Notes under the pieces: model-generated
Told to the model about the DNA's origin: nothing
Databases searched by the model: none
Seen by the model: only the letters and a program-made list of their open reading frames with translations
Source of the DNA: a virus
IMG/VR virus record: IMGVR_UViG_3300031774_000028
Coordinates: 1-49,899 of that record
DNA: 49,899 bases
Strand: one strand, 5' to 3'
Part shown: positions 22,471 through 47,075 of the stretch, piece after piece
Layout of the letters: each line of letters opens with the position of its first letter
How positions within the stretch are numbered: the stretch's first letter is position 1
Made by a program: the position numbers and the translations under genes

Positions 22471-22606
22471 TTATTTGTGAGGGTTGAAAATTAAATTCCA
22501 TATTTCCCAGTTTCACCAGATTAAAAAAAATTTTATTTTTAATTTTTGTACCCCCCACGGTATTGTAAAAGTTTTGTGTTTGGCATTCTGAAGAGGATCT
22601 ACTATT

Positions 22607-22622
22607 CTGCTCCCCAGCTAAT
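22607..22622 (+). repeat. Direct repeat copy 1, CTGCTCCCCAGCTAAT
   Basis: This 16-base sequence recurs at 23127-23142 with one change (G to A), both copies in non-coding DNA on either side of the first plus-strand gene. Both are in regions otherwise poor in C/G, which makes the match stand out. It may be a binding site, an iteron or part of an early regulatory element. Confidence 0.5.
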
Positions 22623-22684
22623 TATTGCGGATAGGGTACCCCCGTATGTAAGTGGTATCCATAATTATTTTAAATTCATAAATT

Positions 22685-23014
22685 ATGTCAGTATTCTTCA
22701 GAAAAGTACAAATCAATGAGTCAACAGGCTCAGCAATGATTCAGTGTACATCAACACCAATCACAAACAAAAAGACTACACTTGCTGGTCTTGCTGTGGG
22801 TAGTAGAACTCAAGGTAATATTACCTTCGGTCAATTATCTCTTATAGACCCAGAAACCAATCTGGTAATGAGAGCTAATCATCCAACAATCCAAGAGCTA
22901 ATGAAAAAATTAGAGCCTGGACAAGAGATGCCTGGATTCCGTATGTCAGATAATGCAGTAACGGACCTGAGAACCGGAGAACTCACAACACTAATGTGGG
23001 TGGAAGCAGTATAA
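22685..23014 (+). CDS. First plus-arm gene, conserved hypothetical protein
   Basis: This 109-residue protein begins MSVFFRKVQINESTGSAMIQ, with a Thr/Gly-rich beta-like middle part (TLAGLAVGSRTQGNITFGQL) and a C-terminal part ELMKKLEPGQEMPGFRMSDN. It is soluble with no known motif. It is the first gene of the plus-strand arm and is isolated: a 260-bp control region upstream, a hairpin right after its stop (23019-23046) and then almost 500 bp of non-coding DNA. That placement suggests a strongly and separately expressed early protein. Function is not recognised. Confidence 0.6.
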   Translation: MSVFFRKVQINESTGSAMIQCTSTPITNKKTTLAGLAVGSRTQGNITFGQLSLIDPETNLVMRANHPTIQELMKKLEPGQEMPGFRMSDNAVTDLRTGELTTLMWVEAV

Positions 23015-23018
23015 TCTT

Positions 23019-23046
23019 AATGGCCGTGTGTAAAAGCACGGTCATT
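23019..23046 (+). terminator. Hairpin after the first plus-arm gene, no T tract
   Basis: AATGGCCGTG and CACGGTCATT form a 10-bp stem with one G-T pair and an 8-base loop, starting four bases past the stop at 23014. It is followed by ATAATAACC, not by a T run, so it could be an RNA-stabilising or processing hairpin rather than a classic terminator. Confidence 0.45.
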
Positions 23047-23126
23047 ATAATAACCATTGTTACAATTCCTATGTTACATTAACCAATTCTTTACCTCTAT
23101 TTCTGCTCATCTTCCAATATCAACCT

Positions 23127-23142
23127 CTGCTCCCCAACTAAT
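23127..23142 (+). repeat. Direct repeat copy 2, CTGCTCCCCAACTAAT
   Basis: This matches 22607-22622 at 15 of 16 positions in the same orientation, 520 bp away, with the first plus-arm gene between the copies. It lies in the long non-coding region. Confidence 0.5.
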
Positions 23143-23397
23143 CTCTGCATCTTACTAATAATTAGTAATTAGTTATGTAAAAATTATTTATTTGGGTGTT
23201 GCACAATGAAGATGACATCATATAAGCCATATAATATACCTTTAAGGCCATTAAAATAATAACTGGACCCTATATATATAAATATAGCTAACAATACTAC
23301 AAGAGTAACAATTACACTCAACAATATAACATGAGTAGTTGTTGTCTCTTCCTCTATAGGAATAGTATCATATTACCCGCAATATTAAAATCAAAAG

Positions 23398-23472
23398 CTT
23401 AGAGCAATGAGTCACGCAATACCACTGACTATTCTGTAATAGTGTCAGCCAATAATGGATAAGCACTCTAAG
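23398..23472 (+). ncRNA. Candidate structured leader RNA or attenuator
   Basis: An outer stem CTTAGAG (23398-23404) / CTCTAAG (23466-23472) encloses an inner hairpin CTG-ACTATT-CTGT-AATAGT-GT-CAG (23425-23448), whose central 6-bp stem with tetraloop is perfect. The outer stem is followed by TTATTTTT. It lies 28 bp before the start at 23501, so it could be an attenuator, a processed small RNA, or a 5' leader fold. This is drawn by eye only. Confidence 0.35.
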
Positions 23473-23500
23473 TTATTTTTAACCACTAACATTAAATCAA

Positions 23501-23707
23501 ATGAAAAATTCTAAAATCATGTTGGCAACAGTAACAACATTTATCCTAACTGTAATATTTATAAATACAATCGTATGGTATCTAGAAGATACTTGGACAT
23601 TTAAAGAATGCTTTGGCCATGGTGCAACCATAGGGGTATCAGTAATCTTTGGATGGTTACCAGCAATATTCGTTGGTCAAGACGTAAATGAAAAACTTAA
23701 TCACTAA
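23501..23707 (+). CDS. Small membrane protein, two TM segments
   Basis: This 68-residue protein has TM1 at about 6-27 (IMLATVTTFILTVIFINTIV), a short loop with WYLEDTWTFKECFGHGATIG, and TM2 at about 42-58 (IGVSVIFGWLPAIFVG), ending in a polar tail. It is probably in the inner membrane. It begins a run of small early-type genes, just before a lipoprotein gene (10-bp gap). Proteins of this sort often alter the host envelope or block superinfection, but no family is recognised. A holin role is possible, although the endolysin is far away on the other strand. Confidence 0.6.
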   Translation: MKNSKIMLATVTTFILTVIFINTIVWYLEDTWTFKECFGHGATIGVSVIFGWLPAIFVGQDVNEKLNH

Positions 23708-23717
23708 TCCTTAAACT

Positions 23718-23891
23718 ATGAAAAGAAAGTTTCTTTATCTAATGCTATTACTCTTTATTGGAGGACCAGTATTACAATCATGTGGATCCACACGTAATAG
23801 ATGTGGGACATCAAAAAACAAAAAAGCTTGGGCCAAGAAAAACTATTGGGTATCCAAGAAAAAACACAAACGTTCTAAATGGGGTAGATAG
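23718..23891 (+). CDS. Small lipoprotein (lipobox LQSC)
   Basis: This 57-residue frame encodes MKRKFLYLMLLLFIGGPVLQ and then SCGSTRNRCGTSKNKKAWAK. A positively charged start, a hydrophobic stretch and L-Q-S-C at residues 19-22 form a lipoprotein signal with Cys22 as lipid site; SCGS is typical of Bacteroidetes. The mature part is about 36 residues, very basic (KKNYWVSKKKHKRSKWGR). The protein would sit in the inner or outer membrane of the infected cell. Phage lipoproteins such as T5 Llp block their own receptor, so superinfection exclusion is a plausible inference. The stop codon falls in the loop of the terminator that follows. Confidence 0.68.
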   Translation: MKRKFLYLMLLLFIGGPVLQSCGSTRNRCGTSKNKKAWAKKNYWVSKKKHKRSKWGR

Positions 23892-23906
23892 TCTATCCCT
23901 TTTTTT
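23881..23906 (+). terminator. Rho-independent terminator overlapping the lipoprotein stop codon
   Basis: GGGGTAGA and TCTATCCC form an 8-bp stem (one G-T pair) with a three-base loop that is the TAG stop codon (23889-23891), followed by seven T. Terminating ribosomes would cover the stem, so termination of transcription may depend on translation of the lipoprotein gene. Confidence 0.75.
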
Positions 23907-23927
23907 ATTAATTAATACCACAAAACC

Positions 23928-24212
23928 ATGCAAGTAAAAATCATTAATCCTGAACAATTTGTTCAGCACAACAACAAAATTGGTATACTAATGTATACTA
24001 ACATTGAAAGTCCAACAGTTAACCTATTTACAGGAGAACAACATTTCGTAATCAAACGTAATGAACTTGAATCACCACTAATGGAAGATTTAAACGCAGA
24101 GTTAATTAACAATAATGAGTTAAGAACACTGGCCTTGGACAACAACCTAATAGAGGTAAAAAGATTCTCTATGGTAGAATATATAAACTATTGTCAATCC
24201 TATAATAAATAA
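23928..24212 (+). CDS. Hypothetical early-region protein
   Basis: This 94-residue soluble protein begins MQVKIINPEQFVQHNNKIGI and has a beta-rich first half and a helical second half with ESPLMEDLNAELINNNELRT and MVEYINYCQSYNK at the end. No catalytic or metal-binding pattern is seen. It follows the lipoprotein terminator and precedes a membrane-protein gene by 4 bp, so those two probably share a transcript. It belongs to the group of small, poorly conserved genes that phages use early in infection. Function unknown. Confidence 0.5.
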   Translation: MQVKIINPEQFVQHNNKIGILMYTNIESPTVNLFTGEQHFVIKRNELESPLMEDLNAELINNNELRTLALDNNLIEVKRFSMVEYINYCQSYNK

Positions 24213-24216
24213 AGCC

Positions 24217-24552
24217 ATGAAAAAATTTCTTAGATCACTTATTAAAATAATATTCGTTGTAGTACAACCTATATTAGCAACAGTAACATTTGCAGCAATC
24301 GTATTTAATGATGGGTTCATATCTACACCATTAGTGTGGACGGGACTTATATTATCTTACTTTACAGTATTGATATTAGCAATTATAGTATATTATTATC
24401 TGCCAAGGGTAAGTATGCTACCAAAGTTTGACATAGAGTTTCTACCATTAGTTGGTATAGGAATAGGTGTTGACCTTGGTTATCATGGAAAAGATTTTTC
24501 TGTAATTATATTTATCCCATTTGTGTCATTGGAGATAAAACAACAAGTTTAA
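24217..24552 (+). CDS. Membrane protein, two TM segments
   Basis: This is a 111-residue protein with TM1 at about 8-30 (IKIIFVVVQPILATVTFAAI) and TM2 at about 40-63 (WTGLILSYFTVLILAIIVYY). The last third is beta-like and amphipathic (DIEFLPLVGIGIGVDLGYHG, then FSVIIFIPFVSLEIKQQ). The basic N-terminus (MKKFLRSLIK) points to a cytoplasmic start. It lies 4 bp after the previous gene. A holin-like or envelope-modifying role can be considered, but there is no family evidence. The non-coding stretch after it ends with a strong inverted repeat. Confidence 0.55.
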   Translation: MKKFLRSLIKIIFVVVQPILATVTFAAIVFNDGFISTPLVWTGLILSYFTVLILAIIVYYYLPRVSMLPKFDIEFLPLVGIGIGVDLGYHGKDFSVIIFIPFVSLEIKQQV

Positions 24553-24665
24553 CAAATTAAAAGTGCCACACCTGACACCCTAACAACACCAGTATTATTA
24601 TATATATTATTACTAGGTAGTAAGGCTAGGGAAATACACAGCATATATGGTTAGTGGTAACCTAA

Positions 24666-24701
24666 CATAGTGGGTTCAATCATTAGTATTGGCCCACTAT
24701 G
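24666..24701 (+). terminator. Inverted repeat CATAGTGGG / CCCACTATG
   Basis: A perfect 9-bp inverted repeat with an 18-base loop is followed by TTTATTAAAATT. The second arm contains the ATG at 24699, which makes that ATG a poor start. It may terminate the upstream transcript or regulate the next gene. The loop sequence (TTCAATCATTAGTATTGG) has a further small pairing. Confidence 0.45.
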
Positions 24702-27772: not shown

Positions 27773-27846
27773 GGTCCTATAGCTCAATTGGATAGAGCAA
27801 CAGCCTTCTAAGCTGTAGGTTCAAGGTTCAAGTCCTTGTGGGATCA
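27773..27846 (+). tRNA. tRNA-Arg (anticodon TCT)
   Basis: The acceptor arms GGTCCTA and TGGGATC pair with two G-T pairs. The D arm is GCTC/GAGC, the anticodon stem ACAGC/GCTGT with loop CTTCTAA (TCT), and the T arm CAAGG-TTCAAGT-CCTTG; discriminator A. CCA is not encoded. It reads AGA, a frequent codon in this AT-rich genome. Confidence 0.93.
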
Positions 27847-27851
27847 CTGTT

Positions 27852-27940
27852 GGCCGGATGATGAAATTGGTAGACATGAAGGACTTAAAATCCTTTGGAC
27901 AGCAATGTCCGTGTGGGTTCAAATCCCACTCCGGCTACCA
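27852..27940 (+). tRNA. tRNA-Leu (anticodon TAA)
   Basis: This type II tRNA has a long variable arm (TGGACAGCAATGTCCGT). The acceptor is GGCCGGA/TCCGGCT with a G-T first pair, the D arm ATG/CAT, the anticodon stem AAGGA/TCCTT with loop CTTAAAA, and the T arm GTGGG/CCCAC. CCA is encoded and ends exactly where the next tRNA begins. It reads TTA. Confidence 0.92.
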
Positions 27941-28014
27941 GCACTCTTAGCTCAGTTGGTTAGAGCAATTCACTCATAATGAAAAGGTCACAGGTTCAAG
28001 TCCTGTAGGGTGCA
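27941..28014 (+). tRNA. tRNA with CAT anticodon (Met or Ile2)
   Basis: The acceptor is GCACTCT/AGGGTGC, the D arm GCTC/GAGC, the anticodon loop CTCATAA (CAT) with a stem that has one A-A mismatch at its outer end, and the T arm ACAGG/CCTGT. The first acceptor pair G-C excludes the usual initiator mismatch. Whether it is elongator Met or Ile with lysidine needs comparison of identity bases. Confidence 0.88.
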
Positions 28015-28055
28015 CCTTTATAAATCTAAAAAATTAAAAAATTCATGTAATAATT

Positions 28056-37265: not shown

Positions 37266-37664
37266 ATGAAAAAACCAAAAAAATGGTGGATACCAGGTTC
37301 CGTACCTTCCAGTAAAAATGGAAGAAGATGGACGGGTAAATACTTTATAGCTAGTAAGACAGTAGTTAACTATAGAAAGCTTACTAAAGAATACTATGAA
37401 AAGTATGCTGAAGAGTTTAAAGCAGAATTATCTAAATGTACTTTGCCGGCTAAGATATCTTTTACATTTGTAAGGGGTACCAAACATAAATTTGATTACA
37501 TCAATCCTGCACAAACAGTTCAAGATGATATGGTTAAAGCGGGTTGGATTGAGGATGATAATGCAGAGTTTATTCTTCCTGTATTTATTCAATATACATA
37601 TGATAAACAGAATCCTGGAGTATGGATAGAAATATTAACTGATGAATGTAATAAAGAAAAGTGA
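37266..37664 (+). CDS. RusA-like Holliday junction resolvase
   Basis: This is a 132-residue protein. The N-terminal strand part (WWIPGSVPSSKNGRRWTGKY) matches the RusA 'PGxPxSxN' pattern, and the core KFDYINPAQTVQDDMVKAGW followed by IEDDNAEF holds the conserved Asp residues (D-x-x-N ... D-D ... D-D). These bind metal and cut four-way junctions. It would resolve recombination intermediates before packaging. It lies 1 bp after the primase, overlaps the following gene by 23 bp, and belongs to the same transcript. Confidence 0.78.
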   Translation: MKKPKKWWIPGSVPSSKNGRRWTGKYFIASKTVVNYRKLTKEYYEKYAEEFKAELSKCTLPAKISFTFVRGTKHKFDYINPAQTVQDDMVKAGWIEDDNAEFILPVFIQYTYDKQNPGVWIEILTDECNKEK

Positions 37665-37932
37665 TTTCTTTAATATTTTAAGATTACTTAATGGCCTACC
37701 TGTTGATTTTGATTTAGGAATGCATTGTTATAATAGTTTAGAGTTACAAGATAAATATATAACTGATAAGCTATTTGCTAAAGCTTTGCATTATGATGCA
37801 AGAAAATTGTTTTTGAAAAGTAGAAACATTAAATATTCTTTAGGTTCTCTTACAATAAAATGTATACTTATTGATATTGGTGGTACATATAATGAAGAAA
37901 CTTATAAAAAAATATTAGATAAAATTATATAG
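37642..37932 (+). CDS. Hypothetical protein
   Basis: This 96-residue protein begins MNVIKKSDFFNILRLLNGLP and contains HCYNSLELQDKYITDKLFAK, then a beta-like end (LTIKCILIDIGGTYNEETYK). It overlaps the end of the RusA-like gene by 23 bp and ends two bases before the VWA-peptidase gene. It may be coupled to both. No motif is recognised. Confidence 0.45.
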   Translation: MNVIKKSDFFNILRLLNGLPVDFDLGMHCYNSLELQDKYITDKLFAKALHYDARKLFLKSRNIKYSLGSLTIKCILIDIGGTYNEETYKKILDKII

Positions 37933-37934
37933 AT

Positions 37935-39098
37935 ATGATGAACATACAAGATATAGTTGCACGGACAACTAAAAGTTTAATATTTGAAGAGCCCTTTTAC
38001 GGGCTTTTTTTAATTGGTATAAATAAACAATACAGTGATAAAATACCTACAGCAGGTGTTAGTAAACACGGTATTGGCATGCAGTTAACAATCAATCCTG
38101 ATTTTTACTTAAACTTAAGTGAAGATCATAGGTATGGTTTGGTAAAGCATGAGCTATTACACATTGCATTTGGGCACTTAGTAATGAGAGATCTATATTC
38201 TAATCATAAGTTATTTAACATAGCTGCTGATTTAGAGATCAACCAGTACATACTGGAAAGTAAATTACCTGAAGGTGGTTTATTACTCTCAAGTTTTCCT
38301 GAATTAAATCTTCCTACTAAAGCAGGAACAAAAGAATATTATAAACTTTTGGAACAAGCGCAGCAAGATGGGAGTTCTCCTTCATTAGATAATCTAATGG
38401 ATGAAATGAATGGTGAATCACAATATTGTCATGGTACATGGAATGAATTTGATGATTTATCTGAAGCAGATAAAAAGCTTGTACAAAAACAGGTTGATCA
38501 TCAGCTTAAGGAAGCAACACAAGAAACTCTTAAAAAGCAAGGTAGTGTGCCAGGAGAGTTAGCAGAACTAATTCACAAGTTAATGCATGTTGAACCTGCA
38601 AAGTTTAATTGGAAAGCTTACTTAAGAAGGTTTGTTGGTAATTCAAGTATAGTTTACACTAGAAAAATGAGACGTAAGTATAATAAACGTTATTCTGAGA
38701 ATCCAGGTTTAAAGATAAAGTTTAAGAATCACATACTTGTTGGTGTTGATACATCAGGATCTGTAAATACAGAAGAACTAAAAGAATTCTTCTCTGAGTT
38801 AGCACATATGCATAAAACTGGTCATAAGATTACAGTTGCACAGTGTGATACACAGCTTAAAAGTGTAAAAGAATTCAATCCTAAAAAAGATTGGGAAATA
38901 CATGGTCGTGGTGGAACAAGCTTCCAACCAGTAATTGATCACTATAATGAAAAGAAAGGAGTTTATACAGCTCTTATATATTTAACAGACGGTGAAGCAT
39001 ATTCTCCTGATGACTGTCCAAAAAATACCCTATGGGTACATAGCAGTATATCAGAGATAAATGATGAATTACCAGGACAAAAGATAAAACTAAATTAA
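37935..39098 (+). CDS. VWA-domain metallopeptidase-like protein (DUF2201-like)
   Basis: This is a 387-residue protein. A zinc-peptidase-like site, HELLHIAFGH, at residues 71-80 (HExxH with a further His) is followed by a helical, acidic middle, and a VWA domain starts at about 265 with the MIDAS motif VGVDTSGSVNTEEL (DxSxS) and later YLTDGEA (about 350). This two-part build is known from the DUF2201 proteins (putative metallopeptidase plus VWA-like) encoded with MoxR AAA+ ATPases. The next gene is exactly such an ATPase, 15 bp away. The pair probably acts as a chaperone or peptidase on some protein complex. M1 or M2 may be the start. Confidence 0.82.
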   Translation: MMNIQDIVARTTKSLIFEEPFYGLFLIGINKQYSDKIPTAGVSKHGIGMQLTINPDFYLNLSEDHRYGLVKHELLHIAFGHLVMRDLYSNHKLFNIAADLEINQYILESKLPEGGLLLSSFPELNLPTKAGTKEYYKLLEQAQQDGSSPSLDNLMDEMNGESQYCHGTWNEFDDLSEADKKLVQKQVDHQLKEATQETLKKQGSVPGELAELIHKLMHVEPAKFNWKAYLRRFVGNSSIVYTRKMRRKYNKRYSENPGLKIKFKNHILVGVDTSGSVNTEELKEFFSELAHMHKTGHKITVAQCDTQLKSVKEFNPKKDWEIHGRGGTSFQPVIDHYNEKKGVYTALIYLTDGEAYSPDDCPKNTLWVHSSISEINDELPGQKIKLN

Positions 39099-39113: not shown

Positions 39114-40382
39114 ATGGGTCAAGTAAATTTAAATGCTACAGAACTAAAAGGATTTGTAAACCACATAATCACAAACAACAGATTCTTACAAAAAGAAGGT
39201 AAGCAATCTGTATCTGTTGAGGTTGTTGGTGAATCAGGTATTGGTAAAACGTCAACCATTGTTGAACTAGCTAAAGAGAATGATTTAAACTTTGTTAAGT
39301 TAAACTTAGCACAGATAGAAGAGCTAGGTGACTTAGTAGGTTTCCCAGTTAGACAATTCCAAATGTATAAAGAGACAAAAGTTTCAGAAAATAAAAATGA
39401 CATATCTTATACTGCTGCACAAAGAGCTGCTGCATCATCATCTCTGGCAAAGATGCCTCAAGCAAAAACCAAAAAAGTTGGTTTATGGGTTGATGAACTT
39501 GCTGTACAAGAGTATCTAAAAAATGGATACAAAATGACTGGTAAGAACAGAATGTCTTATTGTCCACCAGAGTGGATTGCTGATAAAAAATCAGGTGGTA
39601 TCTTATTACTAGATGACTGGAACCGTGCTGATGTACGTTTTATTCAAGCTTGTATGGAATTGATTGACAGACAGTCTTATATTTCATGGACACTACCACA
39701 GGATTGGCATATTATATTAACAGCTAACCCGGATAACGGAGATTATATGGTTAACAGTGTAGATAGTGCACAGAAGACTAGATATGTAACCGCAAATCTT
39801 AAGTTTGATGTTAATGTATGGGCTCAATGGGCAGAAGAAGCAGGTGTAGATTCTAGATGTATTAACTTTTTGTTATTGAATCCTGAGTTAGTAACTCAAG
39901 AAACAAATGCAAGATCTATTACTACATTCTTTAATGCTATATCAAGTTTTGATAATTTTGAAGATAACCTCAGCATGATTCAAATGATTGGTGAGGGTAG
40001 TGTAGGTGATGCTTTTGCATCAATGTTCACAACCTTCATTAATAATAAACTTGATAAGCTTGTAACACCAAAAGATTTGTTGACACATGATAATCAGCAA
40101 TATATTTTAGGTGAACTTAGAAGTTGTATTGGTAAGGATGATAATTACCGTGCTGATATAGCATCTACATTAGCTACACGTTTAGCAAATTATGCTGTTG
40201 TGTATTCTAAAGAAAATACCGTAAGTCAAAAGAATACAGATAGACTAAAGACACTATGTACTGAAGACTATTTTACTAATGACTTAAAATATTTGATTGT
40301 AAGATCAATATTTAGTGGTAATAAACAAAAGTTCAATAAATTAATGATGATCCCTGAGATTGTTAAAATGACAATGAAATAA
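39114..40382 (+). CDS. MoxR-type AAA+ ATPase
   Basis: This is a 422-residue protein. Walker A is at residues 38-46 (GESGIGKTS), with NLAQIEELGDLVGFP just after, and Walker B at about 160 (GGILLLDDWNRADV). Sensor 1 is at about 201 (ILTANPDNGDYMV) and an Arg-finger region at DSAQKTRYVTANL. The order and the 'DDWNRA' box fit MoxR/AAA_5 ATPases, which remodel proteins together with VWA-domain partners. The preceding gene encodes the VWA partner; two paralogous unknown proteins follow with overlaps or 1-bp gaps. The TTAAAAAAGTAAAA leader suggests strong translation. Its substrate is unknown. Confidence 0.83.
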   Translation: MGQVNLNATELKGFVNHIITNNRFLQKEGKQSVSVEVVGESGIGKTSTIVELAKENDLNFVKLNLAQIEELGDLVGFPVRQFQMYKETKVSENKNDISYTAAQRAAASSSLAKMPQAKTKKVGLWVDELAVQEYLKNGYKMTGKNRMSYCPPEWIADKKSGGILLLDDWNRADVRFIQACMELIDRQSYISWTLPQDWHIILTANPDNGDYMVNSVDSAQKTRYVTANLKFDVNVWAQWAEEAGVDSRCINFLLLNPELVTQETNARSITTFFNAISSFDNFEDNLSMIQMIGEGSVGDAFASMFTTFINNKLDKLVTPKDLLTHDNQQYILGELRSCIGKDDNYRADIASTLATRLANYAVVYSKENTVSQKNTDRLKTLCTEDYFTNDLKYLIVRSIFSGNKQKFNKLMMIPEIVKMTMK

Positions 40383-40383
40383 A

Positions 40384-41421
40384 ATGGCAAATAAATCAGT
40401 ATATCAAGATTTTGATACTGATGCTTTAAATTACTTTGCATTGGAGAGTGACACCGTTTATGGTGTCCTCTCTAATACAGACTGTAATAAAGTATTATGT
40501 ACTCAAGATCAAACAACATATGAAAAAATACACAGTATATTAACGGTCCCCACAGAAGATGACCAAACTTTTAGAACCAAAAAGAAAGCTTTTATACTAC
40601 CTAAGTGTAATGTATCACAAGATAGATTAAAGGCTGCTCTTAAAGAGCACGGTATAACTGTTACAAATGATTATGAATTAGCAGATCTTATAATTGGGCA
40701 TGAGGATATTTCTACTCATACATTACAGAATGCGGAAAATATCCCGTCTACTATAATGATGAATAAGATATGGAATTATGAAACTACAATGGGAGATGCA
40801 ACAAAAACAGGTGTCCTAAAAAAAGTCTCAGATTCTGGTTTAGAATGTATTATTACACCTAAGATTACAGACAATGTAAGATATTATGATATAGATATAA
40901 ATGATAGTCTATATGATACCTGGATGCTTACTGGTATGGCTATAAACTTGGCTCATATAATTGATACCACACATGTTAGTGTTATTGATCCTGAGACTGT
41001 GTTACATGCATCTGCTACTAAAATGACTCTTGATGAAGGTCTGTTTAATGATTTAAAAGCGCAATTAAAGGCTTATGGTGATGATAAGGCCTTAGCTCTT
41101 AAAATTGTTCCTACTATAGATTATAAAAAAAATTATCATTTATTATGGCAATTTTCACAAGACTGTAGTAGTATAACATATGCAGATAACAGAGATAAAG
41201 ATCTACAGTATTGGTTAAAAGAATCTGGATTTCTTGATTTTGAAAGAAAGAGTGCTCAGGACATGATACTTTGGTTAGAAGAGAGAGAATTGTTATGTAA
41301 AACAAGTTTCAGATATTTAGAACCTATAGTAAGAAAAGAAATAAGCATTCATAACAGGGATCTTTATACTTTTAAAGTAGCTGTAAAAAAAGAATATCAA
41401 AAATATTTAAAAAATGACTAA
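40384..41421 (+). CDS. MoxR-VWA cassette partner protein A (paralog of the next gene)
   Basis: This 345-residue protein is not recognised as a known family. It starts one base after the MoxR stop. Residues 68-115 (FILPKCNVSQDRLKAALKEH ... ADLIIG) and 235-255 (ALALKIVPTIDYKKNYHLL) align without gaps with residues 72-117 and 265-288 of the next protein, so the two are paralogs. The first block looks like a small alpha/beta unit, and the second like a helical (HEAT-like) repeat. There are no catalytic motifs. Context suggests an adaptor or substrate of the MoxR-VWA pair. The end overlaps the next gene by 8 bp. Confidence 0.6.
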   Translation: MANKSVYQDFDTDALNYFALESDTVYGVLSNTDCNKVLCTQDQTTYEKIHSILTVPTEDDQTFRTKKKAFILPKCNVSQDRLKAALKEHGITVTNDYELADLIIGHEDISTHTLQNAENIPSTIMMNKIWNYETTMGDATKTGVLKKVSDSGLECIITPKITDNVRYYDIDINDSLYDTWMLTGMAINLAHIIDTTHVSVIDPETVLHASATKMTLDEGLFNDLKAQLKAYGDDKALALKIVPTIDYKKNYHLLWQFSQDCSSITYADNRDKDLQYWLKESGFLDFERKSAQDMILWLEERELLCKTSFRYLEPIVRKEISIHNRDLYTFKVAVKKEYQKYLKND

Positions 41422-42580
41422 AAAAATATATAATTTTAATTTAAAGAGAGATGATGTTACAGTCAACAAAAACGTTGAACTAACATCTGGAGCATTTGAT
41501 ATAGAACTAACAGATGAACTGTATGTTGGTAGTAGTGATAACTATCATTTATCAGGTGATGATCTTGCAAATTTTGGGTTACATAACATAGTTACTGGTA
41601 AACAGCAACCATCTGTTATTAGCTTACAAGATGTAAAGATTTATAGATATCCTAAATTAAACTTACCAAGACAAAAGTTTGATTTGTTAAAGGAAAGGTT
41701 TGATTGTAAAATTACTAGGAATAGTGATAAGGCAGACATACATGTAGTGTCATATAAGTTTTTAGAATCTTTATTCACATACAATTGGTATAGTAATAAA
41801 TTTTTAGATTACAGAGACTTCGTTAGAGTTTGTATTATAGCAAAAGAGAAAGGTATGTTTACTGATGGAGCTCTTAATCAGCTTAGAGAAAAACTATCTG
41901 GAATGGATCAAAACTCTATTGTTGCTTTTAATCAACACTACTATAATAGTAGTAATAATGTTCAGTTATGGAGAGACCAATTTCTTAAGATTACAGAACC
42001 TTTTCATGAAGCAGCAAATCTAGGATCTAGAGTAGTTATGATTGAAAAAGGTAAAGTTAAAGATTATGATAGAGTTGTTAATTCTGTAGCTACTGTTGTA
42101 TTTGATACTGCAATAACTGAAATAATTGATGAAGATTTAGCAATTATTGAAGATGATCAATACGGTACCATAGAACAGATGATTACAAGTAATGATATAG
42201 AAAATAGAACATTGGCTCTTGAAATGCTAGCTAATTCTAATATAGAAAAATCATTTAATGTAGTATCTAGTTTGTATTGGTGGCACTATGATTGGATGAA
42301 AGCTACTAATAATTGGAATACAGTAAATGTAAAAGCTATGAGGTCACGGTTAAAATCATATGAAGGTGGTCATGATACTAATAATGTTTATTCTTATAAT
42401 AGATACATCATGGCTTTGACAGAAGATAGAAAATTAACTAAATTTGCTGTTGACAATACCAGATCTTTATTTCTCAATAAATGCTTAAATGCAATGGTAG
42501 GACCAGGAGCTGAAGTATTTAAAGTTGATTTAGAACATCTTGTATTAAAGGAAAAATATAATAACTCAATTAATGAATAG
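41414..42580 (+). CDS. MoxR-VWA cassette partner protein B (paralog of previous gene)
   Basis: This 388-residue protein contains the shared blocks at 72-117 (YRYPKLNLPRQKFDLLKERF ... KADIHVV) and 265-288 (TLALEMLANSNIEKSFNVV, preceded by MITSNDIEN). The second block resembles a HEAT-like helix pair often seen in Bacteroidetes phage proteins (M...D.EN..LA.E.L). Between them is a helical region (FVRVCIIAKEKGMFTDGALN). It overlaps the upstream gene by 8 bp and the next nuclease gene by 8 bp, so all are in one chain. The role is unknown; tandem duplication next to MoxR suggests a hetero-complex. Confidence 0.6.
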   Translation: MTKKIYNFNLKRDDVTVNKNVELTSGAFDIELTDELYVGSSDNYHLSGDDLANFGLHNIVTGKQQPSVISLQDVKIYRYPKLNLPRQKFDLLKERFDCKITRNSDKADIHVVSYKFLESLFTYNWYSNKFLDYRDFVRVCIIAKEKGMFTDGALNQLREKLSGMDQNSIVAFNQHYYNSSNNVQLWRDQFLKITEPFHEAANLGSRVVMIEKGKVKDYDRVVNSVATVVFDTAITEIIDEDLAIIEDDQYGTIEQMITSNDIENRTLALEMLANSNIEKSFNVVSSLYWWHYDWMKATNNWNTVNVKAMRSRLKSYEGGHDTNNVYSYNRYIMALTEDRKLTKFAVDNTRSLFLNKCLNAMVGPGAEVFKVDLEHLVLKEKYNNSINE

Positions 42581-43571
42581 AAACATTGAAAAAGAAGAGC
42601 AGTTTTACTCAAATGATAAATTTAAGTTTAGCTACTCTTCTTTAAATAAACTTTTATTTTCACCATCCTTATTTTATAAGGACTATATTTTAAATGACCG
42701 TGAGGTTAGAACAGATAAACATTTAGTAGAAGGCAAGCTTGTACATTGTTTGGTGTTTGAACCTGAAAACGTTGAGAACAAGTTTAGTATTGTACCTGGT
42801 AAAGCACCATCAGATAGTGTTAGAAAGGTTTTAAAGAACATGTCTTTATATACTGATGCAGAAAAGTTATTTGATGTCCCATCTGAAATAGTATTGGATT
42901 CACTCAAAGAAATGAATTTGTATCAGTCTCTAAAAACAGATGAGCAACGTATTGTTAAGATTATAAAAGATGAGTTTGAACCTTATTGGGAATTCTTATC
43001 TAACAAAAACGTTGATGTTGTAGATCAAGATACTTTATTAAAGTGTACAGAGCAGGCAGAGTTTATTAAAAGTAACAGTGATGTTATGGCAATATTTGAA
43101 GAAGTTTCAACAGACTTTGATTTAGACCCAATAGAAACTCATGCAGAAAAATATCTGAGTTGTACATTATCTAAAATGCCTTTTGGTTTGCATGGTTACA
43201 TAGATTACTATAAAGTTAATCATGATGAGAAGCTTATAACTATATGTGATCTTAAAACTACAGGTAAAACAATAGCTGACTTTAATGATACAGTAGAGTT
43301 TTATAACTACTGGCTTCAAGCTGCTATTTATTGTAAACTTGTTTATGAAGATATAAGTAAATCAATTGATAATGTAGATGAGTATAAGATTGAGTTTAAG
43401 TTTGTTGTTATAGATAAATATAACCAAGTTTATACTTTTGAAGTTACAGATGCTACACTTAATAAATGGGCGCAAGCTTTTAGTAATGTAATTAAGGCTG
43501 CAGAATACCATTATAATGAAAGAAATTATAGCTTACCTTATAATTTCTTAATTGAAAAAGTTAGATTATAG
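42573..43571 (+). CDS. PD-(D/E)XK exonuclease (RecB/ExoVIII-like)
   Basis: This is a 332-residue protein. The nuclease core is PFGLHGYIDYYKVNHDEKLI, TICDLKTTGKTIADF (about 205-235): G-x-x-D ... D-x-K-T, followed by the conserved helix YNYWLQAAIYCKLVYE. The N-terminal half has FSYSSLNKLLFSPSLFYKDY and EGKLVHCLVFEP, the S-x-l ... G-x-l-x-H pattern of this nuclease class (YqaJ/ExoVIII/AddB-like). It probably resects DNA ends for the Sak4-like annealing protein. It starts inside the end of the paralog gene by 8 bp. It is the second nuclease of this class in the window (the other at 17700). Confidence 0.78.
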   Translation: MNRNIEKEEQFYSNDKFKFSYSSLNKLLFSPSLFYKDYILNDREVRTDKHLVEGKLVHCLVFEPENVENKFSIVPGKAPSDSVRKVLKNMSLYTDAEKLFDVPSEIVLDSLKEMNLYQSLKTDEQRIVKIIKDEFEPYWEFLSNKNVDVVDQDTLLKCTEQAEFIKSNSDVMAIFEEVSTDFDLDPIETHAEKYLSCTLSKMPFGLHGYIDYYKVNHDEKLITICDLKTTGKTIADFNDTVEFYNYWLQAAIYCKLVYEDISKSIDNVDEYKIEFKFVVIDKYNQVYTFEVTDATLNKWAQAFSNVIKAAEYHYNERNYSLPYNFLIEKVRL

Positions 43572-44984: not shown

Positions 44985-45072
44985 AACTGTAAGAAGTGCA
45001 GCTAAAGCTTTAGGTATTAATGAAAGAACTCTACATACATTTAAAGATAAACTTAAAGAAGAAAAAGAATGA
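44926..45072 (+). CDS. 48-aa Fis-type HTH protein
   Basis: The frame encodes METLLQMKERLMTLALKKHK, then TVRSAAKALGINERTLHTFK and DKLKEEKE. This matches the C-terminal DNA-binding part of Fis/NtrC proteins (L..AL....n...AA..LGI..rTL..k). It overlaps the upstream gene by 59 bp and the polymerase start by four bases (ATGA). It has no other domain, so it would be a minimal DNA-binding peptide, possibly acting as a dimer in regulating or organising DNA. Good Fis pattern despite the small size. Confidence 0.62.
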   Translation: METLLQMKERLMTLALKKHKTVRSAAKALGINERTLHTFKDKLKEEKE

Positions 45073-47075
45073 AACATTGGGTAATGGATTATGAAACACT
45101 TTATGATTGTTTTACTGGTGTTTTTGAAAATTATAAAACTACAGAGACTAAGATATTTGTAATATCACGGTTAAGAAATGATCAGACAGAATTTATAAAC
45201 TTTCTAGAAGACAACATCACAAACAAAGAGTGGCATATATCCTATAATGGATTAGCATTTGATGCGCAAGTAACTCACTATATATTAGATAATGTTAGTA
45301 AATGGAAAGATGAAGAAGGTTTAGGTCTTGATGGTCATCTAGTTGCTAATATTATTTATAAGTATGCACAGAGATGTATACAGAAATCAAACAATAAAGA
45401 GTTTAGTGATTATCCACAATGGAAGATGAGAATAGGTCAAATAGATTTATTTAAAATGCACCATTGGGATAACCCGGCTAAACGTTCTAGTCTTAAATGG
45501 ATTCAGTATAGTATGGATTGGCAGAATATATTAGATATGCCTATTCATCATGAAACTGAAATCAGAACTCAAAAAGATCTAGACACTATACTTGAATACT
45601 GCATTAATGATGTTAAGTCTACAAAAGAAATCTATAACAGATCAAGATCTCAAGTAGCTTTAAGAAAAGAATTGACAAGTACATACAATATTAACATGTT
45701 TAGTGCCTCAGAGCCTAGGATTAGTAAAGAGATATTTGGATATTATTTATCTAGAAACTTAAATATTCCTAAAAGAGATCTCAAACAGATGAGAACTTAT
45801 AGGGATACAATTAAGATTAAGGATATTATATTACCATACATTTCTTTCTCATCTCAAGAGTTTAAGGTATTGTTTGATAGGTTTGCTTCATTAGAAGTTA
45901 ACGCAGGTAGTCTTAAGGGTAGTTTTAAATACAACATAAACTATAAGGGTGTCAATACACACTTTGGTTTAGGTGGTGTTCATGGTGCTATAAAGAAAGG
46001 TGTTTATGAACCGGATGATGACATGATGATTATGTCTTCTGATGTAACATCTTTTTATCCTAATCTGGCTATTAAAAACAAGTGGTCTCCGGGTCATTTC
46101 CCTAAAGAAGAATTCTGTAATCAATATGAGTGGTTCTTTGAAGAGCGTAAGAAGATTCCTAAGAGCAATCCAATGAACTATGTATATAAGATTATACTTA
46201 ATTCTACTTTTGGTCTTAGCAATGATGAAAATAGCTTCTTTTATGATCCTGAGTTATGTATGAGAATAACAATCAATGGTCAACTATCCCTAATGATGCT
46301 TTATGAGCAAATTATGGAGCGTATACCGGGTGCTATTGCTTTATTACAAAACACAGATGGTGTAGAAACTATAATACCAAAGGCATTTTATGATGAGTAC
46401 ATGCTTATATGTGAAGAATGGGAAAAGAAAACCAATCTTAATTTAGAGCATGATGAATATCAGAAGATGGTTATTGGTGATGTTAACAACTACATTGGTA
46501 TTAATAAGTGGGTTGATGTAGATATATCTACTTGGAGAAAACTAAAAACTGACAATCCTCATTACTTATTTAAAGTAGAGAATGATAAGTTTAGTTTTGC
46601 CCCGGTAAAACTTAAGGGTAGATTTGATTTTCATAACCTGCAGTTGCACAAGAATAAATCTAAACTTGTTATACCAAAGGCAATCTATCATTACTTTGTT
46701 CATGATATGTTACCTGAAGATTATATTGATACAAATAAAAACATATTAGATTATTGTATTGGTGGAAAATCAAAAGGTGATTGGCAACAGGTTGCTAGAC
46801 AAATAAAGAATGGTATATTTGATGAAGAAAAATTACAGAAGATTAATAGATATTTTATATCTAAATCCGGTGTAAAGATTCTTAAAGTTAACAAGAAAGA
46901 TAAAAGAGAGATACAGTTAGAAGCTGGCAAATGGTTGCAGTCAATATTTAATGATATGCAATTAGAACCTAAGTGGGAAAACTATGATATTGATAAAAAA
47001 TATTATCTTGAAGCTATAGAGCAAGAGATTAATAATATTATTGATGTTGCTCCAAATCAATTAACACTATTCTAA
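45069..47075 (+). CDS. Family B DNA polymerase with 3'-5' exonuclease
   Basis: This is a 668-residue protein. Exonuclease motifs are ExoI at 7-10 (DYET), ExoII near 61 (SYNGLAFDAQ) and ExoIII near 177 (YCINDVKST). Polymerase motif A is near 324 (SSDVTSFYPNLAI), motif B near 374 (YKIILNSTFGLS), and motif C near 427 (LLQNTDGVETI), where the usual DTDS is NTDG and the catalytic Asp is kept. The protein is short for family B, close to other crAss-like phage enzymes. It copies the phage genome together with the helicase, primase and SSB. PhoH follows with a one-base stop/start overlap (TAATG). Confidence 0.87.
   Translation: MKHWVMDYETLYDCFTGVFENYKTTETKIFVISRLRNDQTEFINFLEDNITNKEWHISYNGLAFDAQVTHYILDNVSKWKDEEGLGLDGHLVANIIYKYAQRCIQKSNNKEFSDYPQWKMRIGQIDLFKMHHWDNPAKRSSLKWIQYSMDWQNILDMPIHHETEIRTQKDLDTILEYCINDVKSTKEIYNRSRSQVALRKELTSTYNINMFSASEPRISKEIFGYYLSRNLNIPKRDLKQMRTYRDTIKIKDIILPYISFSSQEFKVLFDRFASLEVNAGSLKGSFKYNINYKGVNTHFGLGGVHGAIKKGVYEPDDDMMIMSSDVTSFYPNLAIKNKWSPGHFPKEEFCNQYEWFFEERKKIPKSNPMNYVYKIILNSTFGLSNDENSFFYDPELCMRITINGQLSLMMLYEQIMERIPGAIALLQNTDGVETIIPKAFYDEYMLICEEWEKKTNLNLEHDEYQKMVIGDVNNYIGINKWVDVDISTWRKLKTDNPHYLFKVENDKFSFAPVKLKGRFDFHNLQLHKNKSKLVIPKAIYHYFVHDMLPEDYIDTNKNILDYCIGGKSKGDWQQVARQIKNGIFDEEKLQKINRYFISKSGVKILKVNKKDKREIQLEAGKWLQSIFNDMQLEPKWENYDIDKKYYLEAIEQEINNIIDVAPNQLTLF

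Follow-up and report, generated by a model that had tools for sequence, protein, structure and literature searches.

What are the two unnamed genes, A and B, that follow a MoxR-type ATPase gene in an uncultured virus, and what could they do beside it? The original prediction, made from the letters of the DNA, held that they are paralogs which duplicated long ago and specialised, perhaps as a hetero-pair on the MoxR ring, and relied on two gapless blocks that lie in the same order in both proteins. The window, i.e. the whole stretch of DNA analysed, covers positions 1–49,899 of the IMG/VR virus record IMGVR_UViG_3300031774_000028 and is a whole virus record by itself. Its large terminase shares about 24–26% identity with the terminases of Crassvirales and Flavobacterium phage FPSV-S29, which points to a distant crAss-like phage as the source. 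The phage group carrying A and B is abundant, uncultured and marine. The genes that concern us are the following:

37642..37932, + strand: gene E, 96 amino acids, apparent stand-alone relative of the helical domain of A and B, directly upstream of D
37935..39098, + strand: gene D, DUF2201 protein with a metallopeptidase-like domain (HELLH) and a VWA domain with MIDAS (DTSGS...T...D)
39114..40382, + strand: gene C, MoxR-type AAA+ ATPase (GESGIGKT, LLLDDWNRA, TANP; phrog_1297, E 4e-35)
40384..41421, + strand: gene A, 345 amino acids, predicted BRCT-like domain with a long insert, then a predicted helical armadillo/HEAT-like (ARM/HEAT) domain
41414..42580, + strand: gene B, 388 amino acids, very likely paralog of A, domains in the same order, 8-base overlap with A
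42573..43571, + strand: PD-(D/E)XK nuclease, exonuclease VIII-like, 8-base overlap with B

The genes around A and B encode DnaB, AAA_24, a primase, RusA, the PD-(D/E)XK nuclease, a PolB-like polymerase and PhoH. A polymerase of 668 amino acids (45069–47075) is unusually short and divergent, and resembles family B DNA polymerase and an RNase H-like exonuclease only weakly. The replication module also includes a spore photoproduct lyase-like gene (PF20903, 48042–48875), for which a function in DNA repair is possible. Gene orientation and GC skew both flip at 22500–24700, with structural genes on the − strand to the left and replication genes on the + strand to the right; this segment is likely a divergent control region or a replication origin. 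Three clustered tRNA genes (Arg-TCT, Leu-TAA and Met-CAT) lie at 27773–28016.

C and D form a MoxR-VWA pair of adjoining genes with an intact MIDAS. In 103 C sequences the Walker A, Walker B and sensor 1 (LTANP) motifs, with their MoxR-type spacing, are about 100% conserved. The Pfam AAA models remain under their cut-off on C, and its placement in the MoxR clade comes from the reading of these motifs and from the MoxR labels of phage homologues. D matches PF13203 and PF09967, with DUF2201 over the cut-off; in 106 sequences its HELLH motif (invariant at H, E, L75 and H) and the complete MIDAS (DTSGS, T328 and D352) are essentially invariant. PHROGs (phrog_1314) and many phage records label D an “HNH endonuclease”, which looks wrong in view of the zincin-like HELLH and the VWA MIDAS.

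Scans of IMG/VR yielded as many as 215 confirmed stretches with A and 202 with B, and the two families are present on some two hundred virus contigs or more; the family profiles were built from 115 A and 111 B sequences. The order C-A-B on one strand was found in all 309 loci holding the three genes, a count in which loci from one contig can repeat, and all five genes (A to E) are present in 99 loci distinct by A sequence. The commonest gap between C and A is one base, A and B mostly overlap or lie a few bases apart, and the E-D and D-C spacings are mostly as tight. Among the loci with room for both, none has only one of the two; nor was any locus found in which the MoxR-VWA set and the A-B set are separated. 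Disparities appear in the rates at which the five proteins change: in the same genomes the median pairwise identity is 86% for C, 79% for D, 56% for A, 36% for B and 31% for E. The unequal rates of A and B, together with the strict rule of one A and one B, fit the predicted specialisation of the two copies.

Relatives were also looked for in other phages. A tblastn search of 50,697 phage records with A and B, taken to an E of 1, gave no match. The B profile, in a search run without a positive control, found nothing in nine phage records (six crAss-like or related, S-TIM5, LIT1 and MTATph1), and these nine records hold no match to the BRCT family. Faecal scaffolds named “Bacteriophage sp.” and carrying MoxR were rejected as relatives: two have MoxR beside DUF2201, A and B are absent from all of them, and their DNA looks bacterial. 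Two relatives of B lie on contigs of MAGs that bear the names Campylobacteraceae and Pseudomonadales; these are most likely phage contigs binned with the MAGs.

The paired strings quoted for A and B exist in the register given, A70–89 with B77–96 (block 1) and A236–254 with B266–284 (block 2). Block 1 continues at the +7 offset to the “AD” of A100–101 and B107–108:

40591..40686, + strand: block 1 in A, residues 70–101, offset +7 to B
41642..41737, + strand: block 1 in B, residues 77–108, offset +7 from A

The similarity of the two single sequences is nevertheless at chance level, and the blocks by themselves are no evidence. BLASTP of A against B gave only a non-significant E of 0.86, in the stretch of block 1; against 2000 shuffles the Smith-Waterman alignment has a z of 0.04, and the global alignment a z of 0.83. 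Two collinear gapless blocks that score equally well were obtained in 275 of 300 shuffles. The original prediction did choose the right diagonals: that of block 1 (32 residues) ranks 2nd of 112,098 gapless placements and that of block 2 (19 residues) 5th of 120,990. Thus the strings and their register stand, while the significance read from two sequences alone does not. That the blocks are real follows from the family profiles, the predicted structures, the fold matches shared by both proteins and an alignment of secondary structure only that falls in the same register.

With the deepest alignments, hhalign matched the A profile to B with E 0.0014 and B to A with E 0.0020 over 127–136 columns (A 209–346, B 233–385), against 0.16 and 0.35 for the reversed-profile controls. 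The C-terminal halves alone reach 1.1e-4 over 119 columns; the N-terminal halves give 0.029 in the +7 register, and the stretch of block 1 (53 columns) 3.9e-4. Between the insert regions there is no profile match (E 0.37). The hhalign probabilities for the two families are modest, 14–56%. Among 992 ordered pairs of profiles from 32 families of the neighbourhood, the pairs A-B, A-E and B-E take 6 of the top 11 places, the others including true P-loop ATPase pairs. A sequence search of the PDB with the A and B profiles returned nothing meaningful.

The two blocks lie within the most conserved stretches of B. A gapless profile-profile scan gives them, at their exact limits, a poor score (block 1 ranks 12,328 of 112,098), as the residues fixed there differ between the two families, while windows on or beside the same diagonals (A89/B96 and A215/B244) are top-ranked in the same scan. 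Near-invariant positions lie at matching places in A and B, namely P73/P80, A100-D101/A107-D108, W130/W125, D202/D231, L304/L341 and F330/F369; the W130/W125 pair is set by model position, as the alignment of secondary structure puts A130 elsewhere and D202 one residue off.

AF2 models computed from separate alignments reached a pLDDT of 89.2 and a pTM of 0.81 for A, 88.1 and 0.70 for B, and display the same order of secondary-structure elements. Alignment of the secondary-structure strings (A 61–345 with B 66–388) has a z of 4.84, and none of 1000 shuffles was as good. This alignment, which uses no residues, places A70 on B77, A89 on B96, A100 on B107, A236 on B266 and A254 on B284, i.e. in the register of the two blocks. 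Thus the statement of the original prediction that the rest of the two proteins differs is wrong: the correspondence spans from block 1 to the C-terminus, and strong differences are confined to the N-terminal ~65 residues and the insert.

Foldseek against BFVD retrieved with both models the same four phage proteins, with probability 1.00 and over nearly the full length (E 5.5e-7 to 1.5e-6 for A, 1.8e-8 to 4.2e-6 for B), the next match having an E above 0.1. They are A0A6J5LXR8, A0A8S5QMV2 (Crassvirales ctYsL76), and A0A8S5TL70 and A0A8S5TKB2 (Podoviridae sp. ctz6O13). No other structural relatives over the full length were found for both A and B; the four proteins are uncharacterised, with 10–17% identity. 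The TM-scores are only 0.30–0.44, with rmsd of 9–15 Å, which indicates that the orientation of the domains differs and that they do not superpose as one rigid body. Since two of the four proteins come from ctz6O13, that phage has a pair as well. A0A8S5TKB2 scores slightly better with A and A0A8S5TL70 with B; from these small differences, the duplication may be older than the divergence of these phages.

The structure alignments of the models delimit the domains as follows:

40564..41022, + strand: predicted split BRCT-like domain of A, residues 61–213, insert about 105–198
41621..42139, + strand: predicted split BRCT-like domain of B, residues 70–242, insert about 113–226
41023..41418, + strand: predicted helical ARM/HEAT-like domain of A, residues 214–345, with block 2 (236–254) inside
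42143..42577, + strand: predicted helical ARM/HEAT-like domain of B, residues 244–388, with block 2 (266–284) inside

In the PDB structure search the top rows are mostly BRCT domains for both models, with Z of 5–7.5, i.e. below 8 and under the level that the tool takes as unambiguous. Examples are 3szm_H for A (Z 6.7, rmsd 3.2, 69 residues aligned) and, for B, 2le0 (Z 7.1, rmsd 3.6, 79 aligned) and 9dfq (Z 6.3, rmsd 2.4, 72 aligned). The BRCT alignment enters at A 61 and B 70 and closes with the last strand and helix, up to A 213 and B 242, with the long insert between. The next PDB matches are armadillo/HEAT proteins, on A 214–289 and B 244–319: A 219–285 aligns with 4u54 (Z 5.5, rmsd 2.9, 66 residues) and B 247–319 with 1jpp_B (Z 5.0, rmsd 2.6, 72 residues), an arrangement common at such Z.

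The Pfam matches are weak and all under threshold. BRCT (PF00533) scores 14.1 bits on A, the cut-off being 21.3, and is not listed for B. Weak BRCT matches, the best with an E of 0.0083, occur in 14 of 50 A members; only Ish1 is matched as often. In 6 of 52 B members there is a weak match to the DNA alkylation repair family, which has a HEAT-like fold. The predicted fold resembles the BRCT domains of MCPH1, PARP1, XRCC1 and Dbf4, from which A and B differ by the long insert inside the domain, the C-terminal helical domain and the Pfam score under the cut-off. The Pfam and NCBIfam models revealed no catalytic signature in either protein. A single weak PADLOC match relates B, for the one B sequence queried, to a homing endonuclease (E 4e-4, 56 residues at the end of the profile), and it falls in the insert. 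A role in defence or anti-defence was considered and is unsupported.

A third relative lies on the other side of the motor genes. Against the helical parts, the profile of gene E reaches an hhalign E of 1.6e-4 with B and of 7.6e-4 with A over 100 columns. Run against 2,807 ORFs, the HMM of the E family retrieved, after its own members, 30 sequences of B and 20 of A, and nothing from unrelated families; one extra ORF of 102 amino acids looks like an E member. In the window its first non-self matches are A and B. E thus looks like a stand-alone helical domain, and a very fast evolving one.

We are therefore confident that A and B are old, diverged duplicates of a gene encoding a BRCT-like domain, with its insert between the third and fourth strands, followed by a helical ARM/HEAT-like domain. 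The shared predicted fold and the match of the family profiles, the two checks named with the original prediction, both speak for the ancient paralogy that was predicted. Since the duplicates always follow the MoxR-VWA pair, they are probably a two-part adaptor for this motor in phage DNA replication, and on balance we favour the model in which they have been kept as its specialised adaptor layer. Every related phage keeps both copies, one A and one B. C would be the hexameric motor, and D would plug its ring and bind clients or adaptors via the metal site. A, B and E would make up the recognition layer, with the helical domain as the common docking part, and a BRCT-BRCT hetero-pair of A and B would bridge the motor to the replication or recombination complex encoded around it. 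Ring binding, A-B pairing and the target process are what we infer here; the hetero-pair on the MoxR ring is a sensible guess from the C-A-B gene order and the analogy with known MoxR-VWA systems, and the neighbours DnaB, AAA_24, primase, RusA, nuclease, polymerase and PhoH suggest that the target is probably a replication or recombination complex. The gradient of conservation, C and D above A, then B, then E, fits a fixed motor with fast-evolving adaptors.

The two paralogs could instead be the clients or substrates of the MoxR-VWA pair, e.g. parts of a complex for replication or recombination that is put together by the motor. The client on which a known MoxR-VWA pair acts is usually encoded next to it, as cNOR is for NorQD (PMC9976466), and a client can evolve more rapidly than its motor, which is the pattern seen in A and B. 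But the helical domain is also found in the stand-alone E, which suggests a docking module used several times, and neither A nor B has a recognised catalytic signature; this alternative seems to us rather unlikely. BRCT and HEAT-like proteins are often replication or repair scaffolds. A and B could thus share an operon with the MoxR-VWA pair and work apart from it, as the neighbourhood, made up of replication and recombination genes, and the under-threshold BRCT and DNA alkylation repair matches would allow; this is less likely still, because the C-A-B order is never broken, the gaps from E to B are mostly minimal and no locus separates the two sets. Convergence of unrelated proteins on common alpha/beta and helical-repeat folds, for which the chance-level pairwise similarity, the frequency of BRCT and ARM/HEAT folds and the modest TM-scores might be quoted, is highly improbable given the adjacency of the genes, the same domain order with the same insert splitting the BRCT, the single register obtained both from blocks chosen on sequence and from secondary structure, the conserved residues at matching places and the same four, and only four, BFVD matches.

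The adaptor model can be set beside known systems. NorQ/NorD, RavA/ViaA and CbbQ/CbbO likewise consist of a MoxR ATPase and a VWA protein with a metal site, encoded side by side; the phage set departs from them in having a DUF2201 metallopeptidase-VWA as its VWA protein and in adding A, B and E. In NorQ/NorD the VWA metal site is dispensable for ring binding and required for client activity (PMC9976466). Ternary systems centred on MoxR-vWA have as third partners VMAP, iSTAND, FtsH or a beta-propeller, mainly in multicellular bacteria (eLife 2020, 9:e52696, PMC7159879). They are alike in having a MoxR AAA+ and VWA core plus a conserved operon partner, whereas the phage partners are a BRCT-like/ARM-like paralog pair and a stand-alone helical protein, and BRCT is unmentioned in that paper. 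None of the Pfam, NCBIfam and PADLOC models names A, B or E as VMAP, iSTAND, FtsH or beta-propeller, the comparison being made by model names. Among phages, N4-like ones (LIT1 gp24- and gp25-like genes), cyanophage S-TIM5 and Moorella phage MTATph1 carry a homologous phrog_1297 ATPase gene at a short distance from a DUF2201-VWA gene; A, B and E are not recognisable by profile near these pairs, and B nowhere in the records. Thus the motor pair does not depend on A and B everywhere. In the literature we found no paper on a MoxR-VWA-BRCT/ARM set, nor on MoxR-VWA or BRCT with crAss-like phages. Tentatively, then, this widespread marine crAss-like lineage may possess a dedicated MoxR-VWA machine with a client-recognition layer of three related proteins, two BRCT-ARM and one ARM-only, acting in replisome assembly or disassembly, which would be a hitherto undescribed type.

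Two families that PHROGs, Pfam and NCBIfam leave unnamed are thereby given a predicted fold and a domain plan, and old duplications in phage operons prove recoverable by profiles and predicted structures despite a pairwise similarity at chance level. MoxR-VWA machines occur widely, in bacteria and archaea as well as in phages, but their clients and adaptors are known in a few cases only. A strictly linked set, with a frozen motor and paralog partners that evolve at different rates, would offer a tractable route to how such a motor recognises its targets.
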